A DNA stretch of 47,114 nucleotides from Methanobacteriota archaeon (lineage in GTDB: Archaea > Thermoplasmatota > Poseidoniia > Poseidoniales > Thalassarchaeaceae). The DNA lies in assembly GCA_011523055.1 (NCBI GenBank), contig WTHQ01000032.1, positions 1 through 47,114 of the forward strand. Reading direction: 5' to 3'. A program made the position numbers and the translations under genes. Positions 19,883 to 28,846 of this stretch are shown here, piece by piece; the first letter of the stretch is position 1, and each line of letters opens with the position of its first letter. The notes under the pieces are model-generated. The model was not told where the DNA came from. It was given only the letters and a program-made list of their open reading frames with translations, and ran no database searches.

Positions 19883-20491
19883 CTATCGGTCACCACTGCT
19901 CATGCTCTCCATACTGTCGAAGATCCCACTCAACTCCCCCCAGTCCGCCCAGTAAGAGTGATCTAAGGGATTCAATGAGCCGTCAGGAAGATAGATCTGT
20001 AGAGTCGGAGTCGTCGGATTCTGAAACGCCTCATAGAGGCCCATGTCAACAATCAACCCAGAGGCCAGATCCACCACAGCTGCATCCTCATCAGGCAGCA
20101 TAATGTCCCATTTGATCGGATTCTCCGAGTCATTACCAACGTATCTGACCAGGACCTCCTCGTCCTGCTCGAAGGCAGAGTACCTGTGGATGCTTATGAC
20201 AGAGATGCCCGCAAGCGATCCATTATCGATCCCTTCTCGCAGCATATCTGTCCAGTCATGGCACCCCCTGCATGACGCTCCCACCCACAGCAGTAGTGTG
20301 GGCTCATCTGCAGCCATGGAGTCCAGGTTAGAGGTCCTGCTACTCCCGTCCTCGGAGTATGTCAGGCTCTCGAAGGTGAACCTCCCCCCTGCCTCCTCAC
20401 CAGTGGTTGGCTCTATCATGGATCTCTCGGGGGACACGCACCCGGGGAACAGACAGATGACCATGATTGTGATAATTGCAATCCTGTTCAT
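19883..20491 (-). CDS. Lipoprotein with thioredoxin-like fold (CxxC)
   Basis: Start at MNRIAIITIMVICLFPGCVSPERS (lipobox LFPGC); LLLWVGASCRGCHDWTDMLREGIDNG is thioredoxin-like CxxC context. Confidence 0.7.
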   Translation of the reverse strand: MNRIAIITIMVICLFPGCVSPERSMIEPTTGEEAGGRFTFESLTYSEDGSSRTSNLDSMAADEPTLLLWVGASCRGCHDWTDMLREGIDNGSLAGISVISIHRYSAFEQDEEVLVRYVGNDSENPIKWDIMLPDEDAAVVDLASGLIVDMGLYEAFQNPTTPTLQIYLPDGSLNPLDHSYWADWGELSGIFDSMESMSSGDR

Positions 20492-22092
20492 GATACCGAC
20501 CCAGTGGGTGATGTTGTGACTCGCTTGGAGGTCTTTTTTACTGGGTGTTTGGAATATGGGAACCAATTGTCCACCCCATTCCATTCGGGATGAATTCCCA
20601 TGTCGGCAAGTAGCAACTTGCTGGTGATCCTACCTGACTCAAAAATCGTGGGCAGACCACTGCCGGGATGGGTTCCCCCTCCGACTAGGTATAGACCGGG
20701 GAACTCCTCAAACCTGTTCCTCGGCCTCAAGAAGAGCATTTGATCGAGGCCGTGAGCGAGGTTGAACACTGCTCCCCTGTATATGTCTGAGGAATCCCAG
20801 TCGTCTGGGGTCACAATGGACTCACTCACGATGTGATTCCTTACGTCGGTGTAGCCCATCTTTTCCACTTGGTCGAGGACAACTTCCCTGAAATCTTCCT
20901 TGATGTCACTCCATTTTATGGAGTCATGGACATTCGGGACGGGAACCAGGACGTAGAGGGTGGAACATCCGTCAGGTGCCAGTGATGGGTCGGTCACGCA
21001 TGCATTCTGTACATACACTGATGGGTCTTCCCATGTCACCCTGTGCTCAGTGATATCTTTCAGGTTCGACTCGTATTCAGACGAGGCGTAGATCTGGTGG
21101 TGAGGCTGGTCCCATGTTCGATCTGTACCAAGGTAAAGCATGTATGTCGAGCAGGAGTATGATTTCTTTGCGAGCTTCTTGTCACTCCACTTCCTTCTTT
21201 TTTGGTTCGGGATGAGGGTGGTCATTGCCTTGGCGAAGTCAGCATTCATGACTACCCTGTCGCAGGAGATGTCCCCCTTGTCGGTTCTAACCCCAATGAC
21301 TCGCTTCCCATCAAGCAATAGCTCCTCGACGGATGTATCAAGCCGGATATCAACCCCAAGCTCCACTGCTATTTCCGCCATTCGCTTGGTTATGCTACCC
21401 AGTCCACCTTTGGCATGGAATATCCCGTGTTCGTATTCTAGGAACGCTAGTATCGTGAACAGGGACGGGGCATGGAATGGGCTCATACCTAGGTATTTGG
21501 TTTGGAACGACATCGCTAGTCTGACACGCTCATCAGGGAAAAGTCGCTCGAGGTCTCCGGCCACTGACGACCATGGCCTAAGTACGCTTGCAGCCTCTAT
21601 TGCCTTCCGGCTGACAAGATCTAGCGGGCCTCTCCACGGGGACTGAAGGCTCGATTTGCTTCGAGATAGCTTTCTCCTATTCTCTTTCACGTACTTTCGG
21701 AAGCCATCAGCGTTCTCATCTCCAGAAAGCTCTCTGACTCTCTCAGTCATCTCATCGAGGTTGGAGGTCGCTTCGATTGACCCCCCCTGGCCGAACATAA
21801 GCTTGTACGAGGGGTCTAGAGGCATCAGTCCGAGTTCTTTGTGGGCGTCCATTCCAATGGCCTGGAAAATCTCCTCGATGACCTCAGGGTAGTGGAAGAA
21901 CGTGGGACCCCTATCAAACTTGAATCCATCTTGCTCGATAATCTTGGTTCTCCCTCCGACCTCGGTTGATTTCTCAATGATCACAACATCCAGTCCGGAG
22001 TATGCCAACAACAGGGCACTTGCCAGCCCGCCAGGTCCGGCGCCGACGATGGTCACATCCGGATCCGAGTTTTCGGGCTTTTCTAGGGCCAT
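20488..22092 (-). CDS. crtI: Phytoene desaturase (CrtI family)
   Basis: VTIVGAGPGGLASALLLAYSGLDVVIIEKSTEVGGRTKIIEQDGFKFDRGPTFFHYPEVIEEIF; C-terminal GLYLVGGGTHPGSGLPTIFESGRITSKLL. Confidence 0.93.
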   Translation of the reverse strand: MALEKPENSDPDVTIVGAGPGGLASALLLAYSGLDVVIIEKSTEVGGRTKIIEQDGFKFDRGPTFFHYPEVIEEIFQAIGMDAHKELGLMPLDPSYKLMFGQGGSIEATSNLDEMTERVRELSGDENADGFRKYVKENRRKLSRSKSSLQSPWRGPLDLVSRKAIEAASVLRPWSSVAGDLERLFPDERVRLAMSFQTKYLGMSPFHAPSLFTILAFLEYEHGIFHAKGGLGSITKRMAEIAVELGVDIRLDTSVEELLLDGKRVIGVRTDKGDISCDRVVMNADFAKAMTTLIPNQKRRKWSDKKLAKKSYSCSTYMLYLGTDRTWDQPHHQIYASSEYESNLKDITEHRVTWEDPSVYVQNACVTDPSLAPDGCSTLYVLVPVPNVHDSIKWSDIKEDFREVVLDQVEKMGYTDVRNHIVSESIVTPDDWDSSDIYRGAVFNLAHGLDQMLFLRPRNRFEEFPGLYLVGGGTHPGSGLPTIFESGRITSKLLLADMGIHPEWNGVDNWFPYSKHPVKKTSKRVTTSPTGSVS

Positions 22093-23136
22093 TCAGTCAT
22101 CCCTCCTGATGGACCACACACTAAGCGTCGAGAGAGCGAAGCCGACCTTCCTGAAGAAGCCGAGGCTCAGGCGCCGAGACAGAACGTCTCCATTCCTCCT
22201 CTCGGCTTCTGTGAGGATCTCGCTGTAAACCGACGCCATGACAGTCGGGCTTGACCTGGAGTCAGCACTGATCAGTGGCAATAGCCTCATGGCATTCTTT
22301 TGATGAGTACTAACCCTGGAGATGTAGTGTCTCATGAAATCCTTCCAGTTGGACGTGGAGGGTAGAATGGGATCTGAGAGGTCTTCTTGGGATATTCCAA
22401 AGAGTTCCAATTCGTCCTTGGGGAGGTAGACCCTGCCCCTTTCAAGATCTTCCTGTATGTCCCTGAGGATGTTCACCATCTGTAGGAAAATGCCCATCTC
22501 CTCTGCGTGTTCCCTTGCATCTGGATTCTCGTACCCATAGATCTCAATGAGGGCCAACCCAACGGTAGAGGCTACCTTGTAGCAGTACCCCCTCATGTCT
22601 TCAAAGGACGAGTAGTTGGTGGGATACAAGTCATCCTCCATCCCATCAATAAGCTGGTTCAGATCATTGAGGCGGATGGGAAATTTGTCGAGTACGTCTC
22701 CAAGAGCGATGAAAATCGGGTCATTGCTCTCCAGTCCCTTGGATGCCCTACTCAGCATGTCCCTGTAGTAAATCAGTCCTCGGAGCTTGTGGCTGTGGTC
22801 GGGTTCAGGGTTGGATGCCTCGGTTTGCTTATCCAATGAGAGTACAATTGATCGGTCCTCTGTCCTTCTGTCAAGTTCTGCGACGTGGCCGGGACTCAAG
22901 TCGGAGAGGTCAGGTAGCCAATCTCCATCGGCGATGTCATCCACCCTACGACAAAAGGCATACAGGGCATAGACCGCATTTCTCTTTTCTACCGGGAGGT
23001 GCCTGAAAGATCTCATGAAGGATGTCGATGCTGATCTTGTGATTTCCCGACAGGCAGCATAGGATTCCTCCAAAGTCAAACCAATTTTCTGTTTGCCTCC
23101 CATCAAGACCATAGTAGTGTTTGAGGTCAATTGCAA
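22093..23136 (-). CDS. crtB: Phytoene/squalene synthase; true start may be slightly downstream
   Basis: SASTSFMRSFRHLPVEKRNAVYALYAFCRRVDDIADG, MGIFLQMVNILRDIQEDLERGRVYLPKDEL (aspartate-rich motifs). Confidence 0.93.
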   Translation of the reverse strand: MQLTSNTTMVLMGGKQKIGLTLEESYAACREITRSASTSFMRSFRHLPVEKRNAVYALYAFCRRVDDIADGDWLPDLSDLSPGHVAELDRRTEDRSIVLSLDKQTEASNPEPDHSHKLRGLIYYRDMLSRASKGLESNDPIFIALGDVLDKFPIRLNDLNQLIDGMEDDLYPTNYSSFEDMRGYCYKVASTVGLALIEIYGYENPDAREHAEEMGIFLQMVNILRDIQEDLERGRVYLPKDELELFGISQEDLSDPILPSTSNWKDFMRHYISRVSTHQKNAMRLLPLISADSRSSPTVMASVYSEILTEAERRNGDVLSRRLSLGFFRKVGFALSTLSVWSIRRDD

Positions 23137-25096: not shown

Positions 25097-25774
25097 ATGA
25101 AGAGAAGCCACGGAACCCGACAAGGAACCCGCTCGATCCTCTCAAAGAGCAAGTCCCAGAGAAGTCGATTGAACATCTCCAAAATCATGCACTCATACTC
25201 CAAGGGAGATAAGGTCTCCATCGTCATCGACGGCGCACAGCAAAAGGGGATGCCGCACCGAAGGTTCCAAGGCGTCACTGGGACAGTGGCAGCCCGTCAA
25301 GGACGGGCCTACGTAGTCGATGTGAAGGACAAGAATATGGCCAAGACCCTCATAATCCGACCGGAGCACATGAAGCCCGCAGATGGCACCCCCAAACCCA
25401 AGGCACCACGTCGACAAGGTCAGAAGGCCAAGAAGGAAGCCACTGCCCCAGTAACGGATTCTAAACCAGAATCGAAGAAAGATAAGAAAGAAGCGGAGCT
25501 TCAGCGCGTCAGAGAGCGGGCCAAGTCCATCGACTTCAAGGTGCTAGGCACTGCAAATGCCAGTGACAAAGACGACCTCCAAGCCATCAAGGGCGTTGGC
25601 CCCTTCATCGAAGAGAAACTGAATGCTCTAGGTATCTACACCTACCTTCAGATCAGCAAAATGAAAGGCGACCTTGAAGACCAAGTCAACGAAGCCATAG
25701 AGTTCTTCCCAGGCCGTGTTAAGCGCGATGAATGGGTGAACCAGGCAAAGGATATGCTTAACGAAGAGGAGTGA
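25097..25774 (+). CDS. rpl21e: 50S ribosomal protein L21e with C-terminal helix-hairpin-helix extension
   Basis: N-term MKRSHGTRQGTRSILSKS...SYSKGDKVSIVIDGAQQKGMPHRRFQGVTGTVAARQGRAYVVDV (L21e); C-term DDLQAIKGVGPFIEEKLNALGIYTYLQISKM...FPGRVKRDEWVNQAKDML (HhH). Confidence 0.92.
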   Translation: MKRSHGTRQGTRSILSKSKSQRSRLNISKIMHSYSKGDKVSIVIDGAQQKGMPHRRFQGVTGTVAARQGRAYVVDVKDKNMAKTLIIRPEHMKPADGTPKPKAPRRQGQKAKKEATAPVTDSKPESKKDKKEAELQRVRERAKSIDFKVLGTANASDKDDLQAIKGVGPFIEEKLNALGIYTYLQISKMKGDLEDQVNEAIEFFPGRVKRDEWVNQAKDMLNEEE

Positions 25775-25779
25775 ATTAA

Positions 25780-26136
25780 ATGTCCGAATCAAATGAATAT
25801 GTCGATTATGCGAAGGTGAGAGACCTCCTTTTGTCCGCTCAAGAACGCCGTCATGAACTCTCATACGAGCAACAGATGGCCCTACAGCATTCTGAGTGGG
25901 CTGCAAGCGCCCAAAGAGGGGGCATCAAGACAAAATCAGACGTATTTCAAGCCCTATCTGAGGCACTTCAGTCGAACGACAAGCTCGCGGACCACCCTGA
26001 CATTTGCGCAAAGATCGCAGAACTCATGCCACTGAGCGTCCAGTCAATGAGGGTCATCATCGCTTCCAAGAGAATAGCGATGGACACGTCCGAGGTTGAG
26101 GCCATCATCGACATCGTCCGCCAACACGTTCTCTGA
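25780..26136 (+). CDS. rpoF: DNA-directed RNA polymerase subunit F (Rpb4 homologue)
   Basis: ~118 aa between L21e and DUF655 as in many archaea; ICAKIAELMPLSVQSMRVIIASKRIAMDTSEVEAIIDIVRQHV. Confidence 0.88.
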   Translation: MSESNEYVDYAKVRDLLLSAQERRHELSYEQQMALQHSEWAASAQRGGIKTKSDVFQALSEALQSNDKLADHPDICAKIAELMPLSVQSMRVIIASKRIAMDTSEVEAIIDIVRQHVL

Positions 26137-27666: not shown

Positions 27667-27742
27667 CCGTGACTTGAAATCTGAACCCCACTTCGGTTGG
27701 CTCGCCGAGGACGCGGACGAGCCTACTCGGAGGAGAGATTCC

Positions 27743-28846
27743 ATGGCAAAGAAGGACACCTATCTGGCTCTTCTGAGACGGGGCATAGATGAAACCACGT
27801 CTCAGCTACTGTCTGAATCCGGACTCAAGATCGGTGATCTCAAAAAACTGGACGAAGACAAGTTAGTTAGCAACTACGGAATAAAAAAGGAAATCGCGAA
27901 ATCGGTGATCGAGTCAGTAAAATCCGGACCTAGAGCCTCAAGTAGGCAGAGATTCCTCGCAGACGTCATTACCAAAGGGGGTGCTCCAAAAAAGGTCGAC
28001 AGGATCCAGGAGCAGCGCTTCAAGAGGGAGCAGAAGGACCTTCTTCAACAGCTCAATGAAAAGAGGGAGGAACAGAGAGTCGCGAGGGTCGAGTCCTTCA
28101 GGAACAAAAAACTCGTGATGAACCGACTCGGCAAGACGGTCGAATTAATCGTGAAGCTAGAAACGATTTTCGACGAAGAGGCGAAGGACGAGCAGCGGTC
28201 CAAGCTCAAGGACCAACTGGAGACCAGGGGCCTAGAGGCCGCTCGTGACCACGAGATGCTCGAGCTGGATGGCACCCCTCAAGACATAGTGGACTTCAGG
28301 AGGAAAATAGCGCCAATCCTCTGCCTCCATGCCTGCCCACACTGTGGAGACGAAATGGACCCTCGGGGCTCGTCCATAATCGAGGACCCACGGGACTTCA
28401 AGTTCGTTTGCTGGGAGTGCGAAGAGGAATTCCACGCAGGGCTCGCCACCGTCGTGGGAGAGAGGATTTCTGACCCAGACTCCGCATCATGGATCACCAT
28501 CGACCCGAACAGGGGGCCAAGGGACCCGATCGTCGCCCCTCCGTCCAAGTCAAGCGCTGACGCAGTGGCGGACTCAGTCACCAGGGAAATAGAAGCCACA
28601 GGGGCCGCTGCGAGCCAGATCTCAGCCTCCATGGAGTCGAGCAAGCTATCTGGAACCCTAATGGAAATTGACGATTGGATCGAGAAGACACTCAAGGAGA
28701 AGGGGTACATTCAGGCGCAAGAGCATCGGGAGAATTTCATCATCGCGACAGGAGCAGGGGCGACTAAATTCAACAAGTGGATGAAAAAGGCCGGACTGTA
28801 CTTCAACAAACAGTCTGGGAAGTGGACTAGATGGGAGGACCGTTGA
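27743..28846 (+). CDS. Uncharacterised protein with basic coiled-coil region and CxxC zinc ribbon
   Basis: 368 aa; N-term MAKKDTYLALLRRGIDETTSQLLSESGLKIGDLKKL (HhH-like), KRI/EK-rich helix, CPHCGDEM...CWECEEEF ribbon, C-term LMEIDDWIEKTLKEKGYIQAQEHRENFIIATG. Confidence 0.72.
   Translation: MAKKDTYLALLRRGIDETTSQLLSESGLKIGDLKKLDEDKLVSNYGIKKEIAKSVIESVKSGPRASSRQRFLADVITKGGAPKKVDRIQEQRFKREQKDLLQQLNEKREEQRVARVESFRNKKLVMNRLGKTVELIVKLETIFDEEAKDEQRSKLKDQLETRGLEAARDHEMLELDGTPQDIVDFRRKIAPILCLHACPHCGDEMDPRGSSIIEDPRDFKFVCWECEEEFHAGLATVVGERISDPDSASWITIDPNRGPRDPIVAPPSKSSADAVADSVTREIEATGAAASQISASMESSKLSGTLMEIDDWIEKTLKEKGYIQAQEHRENFIIATGAGATKFNKWMKKAGLYFNKQSGKWTRWEDR

Follow-up and report, generated by a model that had tools for sequence, protein, structure and literature searches.

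Several bacterial proteins carry a homologous C-terminal module behind a low-complexity linker. In Alphaproteobacteria, these are NuoE, uS2, and bL21 (NCBIfam PRK12373, PRK12311, and PRK12278) and the phasin PhaH (NF045508). The same module is found in protein-O of Dinoroseobacter shibae, which is embedded in the photosynthetic RC-LH1 complex (PDB 8yy9) and carries the module at its C terminus behind a long flexible loop. The authors of that study noted that the domain is common to NuoE and other proteins and called its function obscure (PMC12079452). The Pfam families HHH_5, Cdd1, and DUF4332 belong to the same general helix-hairpin-helix (HhH) fold class. HhH folds often bind nucleic acids. 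The attachment of ribosomes to prokaryotic membranes, for its part, is usually ascribed to SRP, SecYEG, and YidC. The locus described here is an archaeal gene in which such a module is fused to ribosomal protein eL21. The resulting protein resembles the tailed alphaproteobacterial proteins in the arrangement of its parts and in that ribosomal and complex I proteins serve as hosts; however, the alphaproteobacterial hosts are not homologous to eL21, and their modules are about 40% identical to that of eL21. Protein-O also differs, being a membrane subunit of a photosynthetic complex rather than a ribosomal protein. The fusion family is partly catalogued already, but the literature searched did not mention its occurrence on archaeal eL21 and NuoI or the ribosome/membrane pattern set out below, nor did any paper found there describe this module on ribosomal proteins.

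The gene lies on a 47,114-nucleotide stretch of DNA from a Poseidoniales archaeon, called the window here. Its open reading frame (25097-25774, plus strand) is a single uninterrupted frame of 225 amino acids, in which a complete eL21 is joined through a basic linker to an autonomous (HhH)2-like module (Table 1). As a preliminary description of this DNA had stated, the first ~95 amino acids are a canonical eL21. Residues 1 to 95 match Pfam PF01157 (E value, 4.3e-31; 107.2 bits versus a cut-off of 27) and NCBIfam PRK04306 (4e-33; 113.1 bits versus a cut-off of 97), and archaeal eL21 chains in solved structures (95 to 99 amino acids) are covered by the core almost from end to end. The gene neighborhood, with Pus10 upstream and Rpb4/RpoF, DUF655, and KsgA downstream, follows the conserved archaeal order. 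Because the genome yielded a single eL21 match, one such arm is expected on each 50S subunit of this archaeon. An assembly join or frameshift behind the fusion was ruled out, since six separate assemblies contain the same intact, in-frame fusion of eL21 and tail.

Table 1. Features of the tailed eL21 gene and its surroundings, in window coordinates.
Feature	Position	Strand	Basis
eL21 core, residues 1-96	25097..25384	+	Pfam PF01157, NCBIfam PRK04306, length of solved archaeal eL21
Basic low-complexity linker, residues 97-143, net charge +9	25385..25525	+	
(HhH)2-like C-terminal module, residues 144-225 (~80 aa), net charge -7	25526..25771	+	
First hairpin GVGP (residues 166-169; hardly varies across the family)	25592..25603	+	Module alignment A3 and model
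Second hairpin FPGRV (residues 204-208; hardly varies within this subtype)	25706..25720	+	Module alignment A3 and model
Recombination tract, tail and rpoF start from another clade of the genus	25400..25930 (limits approximate)		Sliding identity, trees, dS

The tail had been described as an HhH-type module similar to the tail of alphaproteobacterial bL21 (RplU), and the analysis supported both points. The eL21 tail matches the NCBIfam models of tailed NuoE (1.4e-19), uS2 (3.6e-15), bL21 (7e-13), and PhaH (9.2e-8), in all of which the module likewise sits C-terminally behind a low-complexity linker. Judged by these sequence matches, the homology of the tail to the NuoE, uS2, bL21, and PhaH tails is solid. 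It also matches two PDB chains, 9wqv_a (1.1e-12), deposited as "41 kd complex I subunit," and 8yy9_O (1e-11), the RC-LH1 chain introduced above. Similarity to the generic HhH models of Pfam is weak (Cdd1, 0.021; HHH_5, 0.15), with members of the module family reaching about 1e-4; the eL21 tail stayed below the gathering scores of HHH_5 (13.0 bits versus 27), Cdd1 (15.4 versus 25.5), and DUF4332. AlphaFold predicted a confident, all-helical domain (pLDDT, 88; pTM, 0.80) in which GVGP and FPGR mark two helix-hairpin-helix-like units. A Foldseek search of the PDB with this model gave no match at an E value of ≤0.001, and the likeness to NusA and to the RadA N-terminal domain was weak and nonsignificant. 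The convergent recruitment suggested earlier holds in one respect: unrelated ribosomal proteins acquired the module separately. The modules themselves, however, are homologous, so that only the recruitment recurs. The alignments used were restricted to the modules, with bare eL21 left out. The NCBIfam "sunset domain" variant of uS2 is not the same tail, as it matches only the uS2 core here; a literature search that included the term listed no paper using it. A viral or phage origin was rejected, with no relative of the tail in IMG/VR or the phage collection.

The closest relatives of the eL21 tail, partly including the linker, are found on NuoI and on transmembrane (TM)-anchored giant surface proteins of Poseidoniales, which differ from eL21 in being membrane or complex I proteins rather than ribosomal ones. 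The tail is 84% identical to one surface-protein copy and about 78 to 82% identical to NuoI copies, and the last part of the eL21 linker is common to linkers of modules on membrane proteins. A module tree built on 68 columns places the eL21 tails in one group among the archaeal copies borne by NuoI and by membrane proteins; the rest of the tree is weakly supported. The most likely source of the eL21 copy is thus the modules borne by NuoI or by membrane proteins of Poseidoniales. The archaeal module loci comprised 35 with a TM segment, 10 NuoI, 3 HEAT proteins, and 1 eL21, together with 2 that were unresolved and 12 that were cut off. Hosts in Poseidoniales are the giant surface proteins, with the module after a TM segment, NuoI within a nuo operon, and a few others; the few soluble hosts include a HEAT protein, coiled-coil proteins, and an esterase-like protein. 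Alphaproteobacterial hosts were sampled from plasmid replicons, on which the module was found on NuoE (Shinella), on uS2 (Methylobacterium bullatum), and, in Sinorhizobium meliloti pSymB, on an open reading frame between nuoF and nuoG.

Some loci had unusual architectures. In four of them (L031:5836-6741, L032:5742-6389, L049, and L107), the IDF..LG and DDLQ parts of the module are separated by an insert of ~70 residues (e.g., KKGATSLEVADASEFADAGSAALTDKDGTTVISWTGKDGNALTGVSGITRVF), which may form a small beta domain. A membrane protein at L068:3850-6369 combines EF-hand-like stretches with the module, after which a SAP domain forms the C terminus, and an esterase-like protein (UPF0227) at L042:5641-7374 ends in two module copies. 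In a distant Thermoplasmatota genome (L335, G146:C145), two adjacent open reading frames carry HhH modules, one of them with several HhH-like repeats.

Members of the same domain family were also found in Bacteroidota, again at the C termini of ribosomal and membrane proteins. The search used query A1, which consisted of archaeal rows and two alphaproteobacterial rows; the window's tail was its sole ribosomal row, and it held no bacterial ribosomal row. This query recovered TM-anchored proteins, ActC of alternative complex III, bL21, bL17, and bS1, and query A5, which contained ribosomal, ActC, and TM rows and was used for the census below, added uS2. The Bacteroidota cases differ from eL21 in phylum and in host proteins, and their ribosomal copies are mostly of the WP/WQ subtype. 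A census of 61 Flavobacteriaceae genomes yielded 100 hosts: 31 ActC (L245, a truncated ActC, was moved to this class from the TM class), 30 TM-anchored proteins, 29 bL21, 9 uS2, and 1 other. Membrane or ribosomal proteins therefore made up 99 of the 100 hosts, and the median distance of the module to the protein end was 16 residues. Of the 32 genomes with a ribosomal copy, 28 also had a membrane copy (P = 0.0024), and uS2 copies occurred with WQ-subtype anchors in 9 of 9 cases (P = 1e-5), both values being uncorrected for phylogeny, completeness, and multiple tests. WQ-subtype ribosomal copies coincided with WQ-subtype anchors 16 times versus 9.5 expected (P = 4e-4; among module-bearing genomes, P = 0.026; likewise uncorrected) and had no link with FPGR-subtype anchors. 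Within module-bearing genomes, ribosomal copies were not enriched with membrane copies of any kind (P = 1).

The module family is thus C-terminal mainly on two classes of host: ribosomal proteins (eL21, bL21, uS2, bL17, and bS1) and membrane proteins or complexes (NuoI, NuoE, ActC, RC-LH1 protein-O, TM-anchored coiled-coil proteins, and giant surface proteins). This distribution would fit a flexibly tethered domain for protein-protein docking, because the hosts are mostly ribosomal or membrane-associated, the module is acidic to neutral, and it sits on linkers near the C terminus. The ribosome-borne module would bind a copy of the module on a membrane protein or else a partner common to both, and some of the ribosomes would thereby be kept at the membrane or at respiratory complexes. 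The homology to tails of complex I and RC-LH1 proteins, the co-occurrence figures, the independent fold, and the low dN/dS of the tail (see below) also speak for this reading. The uncorrected statistics, the lack of enrichment among module-bearing genomes, the soluble hosts, the four tailed archaeal genomes without a second module, and the poor packing of modeled tandem modules (see below) speak against it. We regard a recurrently recruited docking module that would connect ribosomes with membrane complexes as the best, though unproven, reading, at a probability of roughly 0.4. Somewhat more tentative is the wider proposal of a previously unrecognized, modular ribosome-membrane docking system shared by archaea and bacteria. 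In it, one small HhH module would tether ribosomes to membrane complexes, having been fused repeatedly to proteins of the large and small ribosomal subunits on one side and to membrane proteins with respiratory, photosynthetic, or anchoring roles on the other. If this is true, a dedicated and repeatedly evolved tether on eL21, bL21, uS2, bL17, and bS1, matched on complex I and alternative complex III by the same tag, would represent a new principle of cell organization. It would also provide a function for the C-terminal domains called obscure in the RC-LH1 paper (PMC12079452), and ribosome/membrane partner pairs suitable for testing are already available in the genomes.

Alternatively, a general self-associating or scaffold domain could cluster abundant complexes (ribosomes, respiratory complexes, and storage granules) or help to assemble them, without specifically joining ribosomes to membranes. 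The presence of the module on PhaH (by family model) and on coiled-coil, HEAT, and esterase-like proteins is consistent with such a role, as is the existence of tandem copies. Furthermore, no membrane copy was detected in some of the tailed genomes: in four tailed archaeal genomes (G001, G003, G005, and G008; 78 to 85% complete), no second module was found at an E value of ≤0.01, which could mean that the partner there is a different protein or that parts of the genomes are missing. A scaffold of this general kind is nevertheless less probable than docking, as the Flavobacteriaceae hosts are restricted to the ribosome and the membrane and co-occurrence follows subtype. Tandem modules were also modeled without confident packing (pLDDT, 74; pTM, 0.46), although this model is too weak to serve as a test of homotypic packing.

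The charge of the module bears on another alternative, in which the tail is an extra rRNA- or nucleic-acid-binding domain that stabilizes the ribosome or couples it to transcription. Residues 144 to 225 of eL21 have a net charge of -7, and the average charge of the module is negative to neutral in nearly all host classes. The rRNA binding proposed in the preliminary description is disfavored for this reason, and most hosts are membrane proteins that have no need to bind rRNA. Nucleic acid binding is common among HhH folds, the eL21 linker is basic, the tail has the weak fold likeness to NusA and RadA noted above, and a SAP domain accompanies the module in one membrane host; even so, we consider a nucleic-acid-binding role distinctly improbable compared with docking. 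The further proposal of a coupling to the neighboring rpoF, DUF655, and ksgA genes gained no support, since tail-less relatives in the genus share the same flanking genes, which can be aligned on both sides.

Within this Poseidoniales genus, eL21 carries the tail in 6 of 11 genomes. The eL21 genes examined in other genera of the order encode bare proteins of about 96 amino acids. The tail is thus not general to archaeal eL21, a possibility ruled out for the Poseidoniales genera sampled. Separate trees were built for the flanks, core, and tail. In the flank trees, the window groups with the tail-less genomes G006, G009, and G004, apart from the clade of the other tailed genomes. In the sliding comparison with genome G002, however, a sharply bounded tract of ~530 bp, which takes in the tail, is ~76 to 96% identical (81 to 96% over most of its length), whereas the flanks are about 47 to 77% identical. 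The tail dS to G002 is 0.40, compared with a core pS of 0.77, which is near saturation. The high identity of this tract within divergent flanks, together with the lower synonymous divergence of the tail, indicates that the tail reached the window's lineage through homologous recombination between species of the genus. One genome within the tailed clade, G007, has a bare eL21 with the apparent in-frame deletion remnant KDMANEEE and looks to have lost its tail in this way. Where the tail is present, its dN/dS is 0.005 to 0.05, as low as that of the core, so that it is kept by strong purifying selection. That a promiscuous module merely hitchhikes on eL21 without a role in the ribosome might agree with its patchy distribution in the genus (6 of 11) and the deletion in G007, but is about as improbable as a nucleic-acid-binding role, given the core-like dN/dS, the transfer of the tail into a second clade by recombination, and the fact that several other ribosomal proteins acquired the module in parallel in two bacterial phyla.

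Two other regions of the window were noted in passing. An open reading frame at 27674-28846 has an HhH-like N-terminal stretch and weak likeness to BAF and to a TRASH zinc site, all below cut-offs. Two minus-strand open reading frames at 20488-23136 resemble, by eye only, phytoene desaturase and phytoene synthase.
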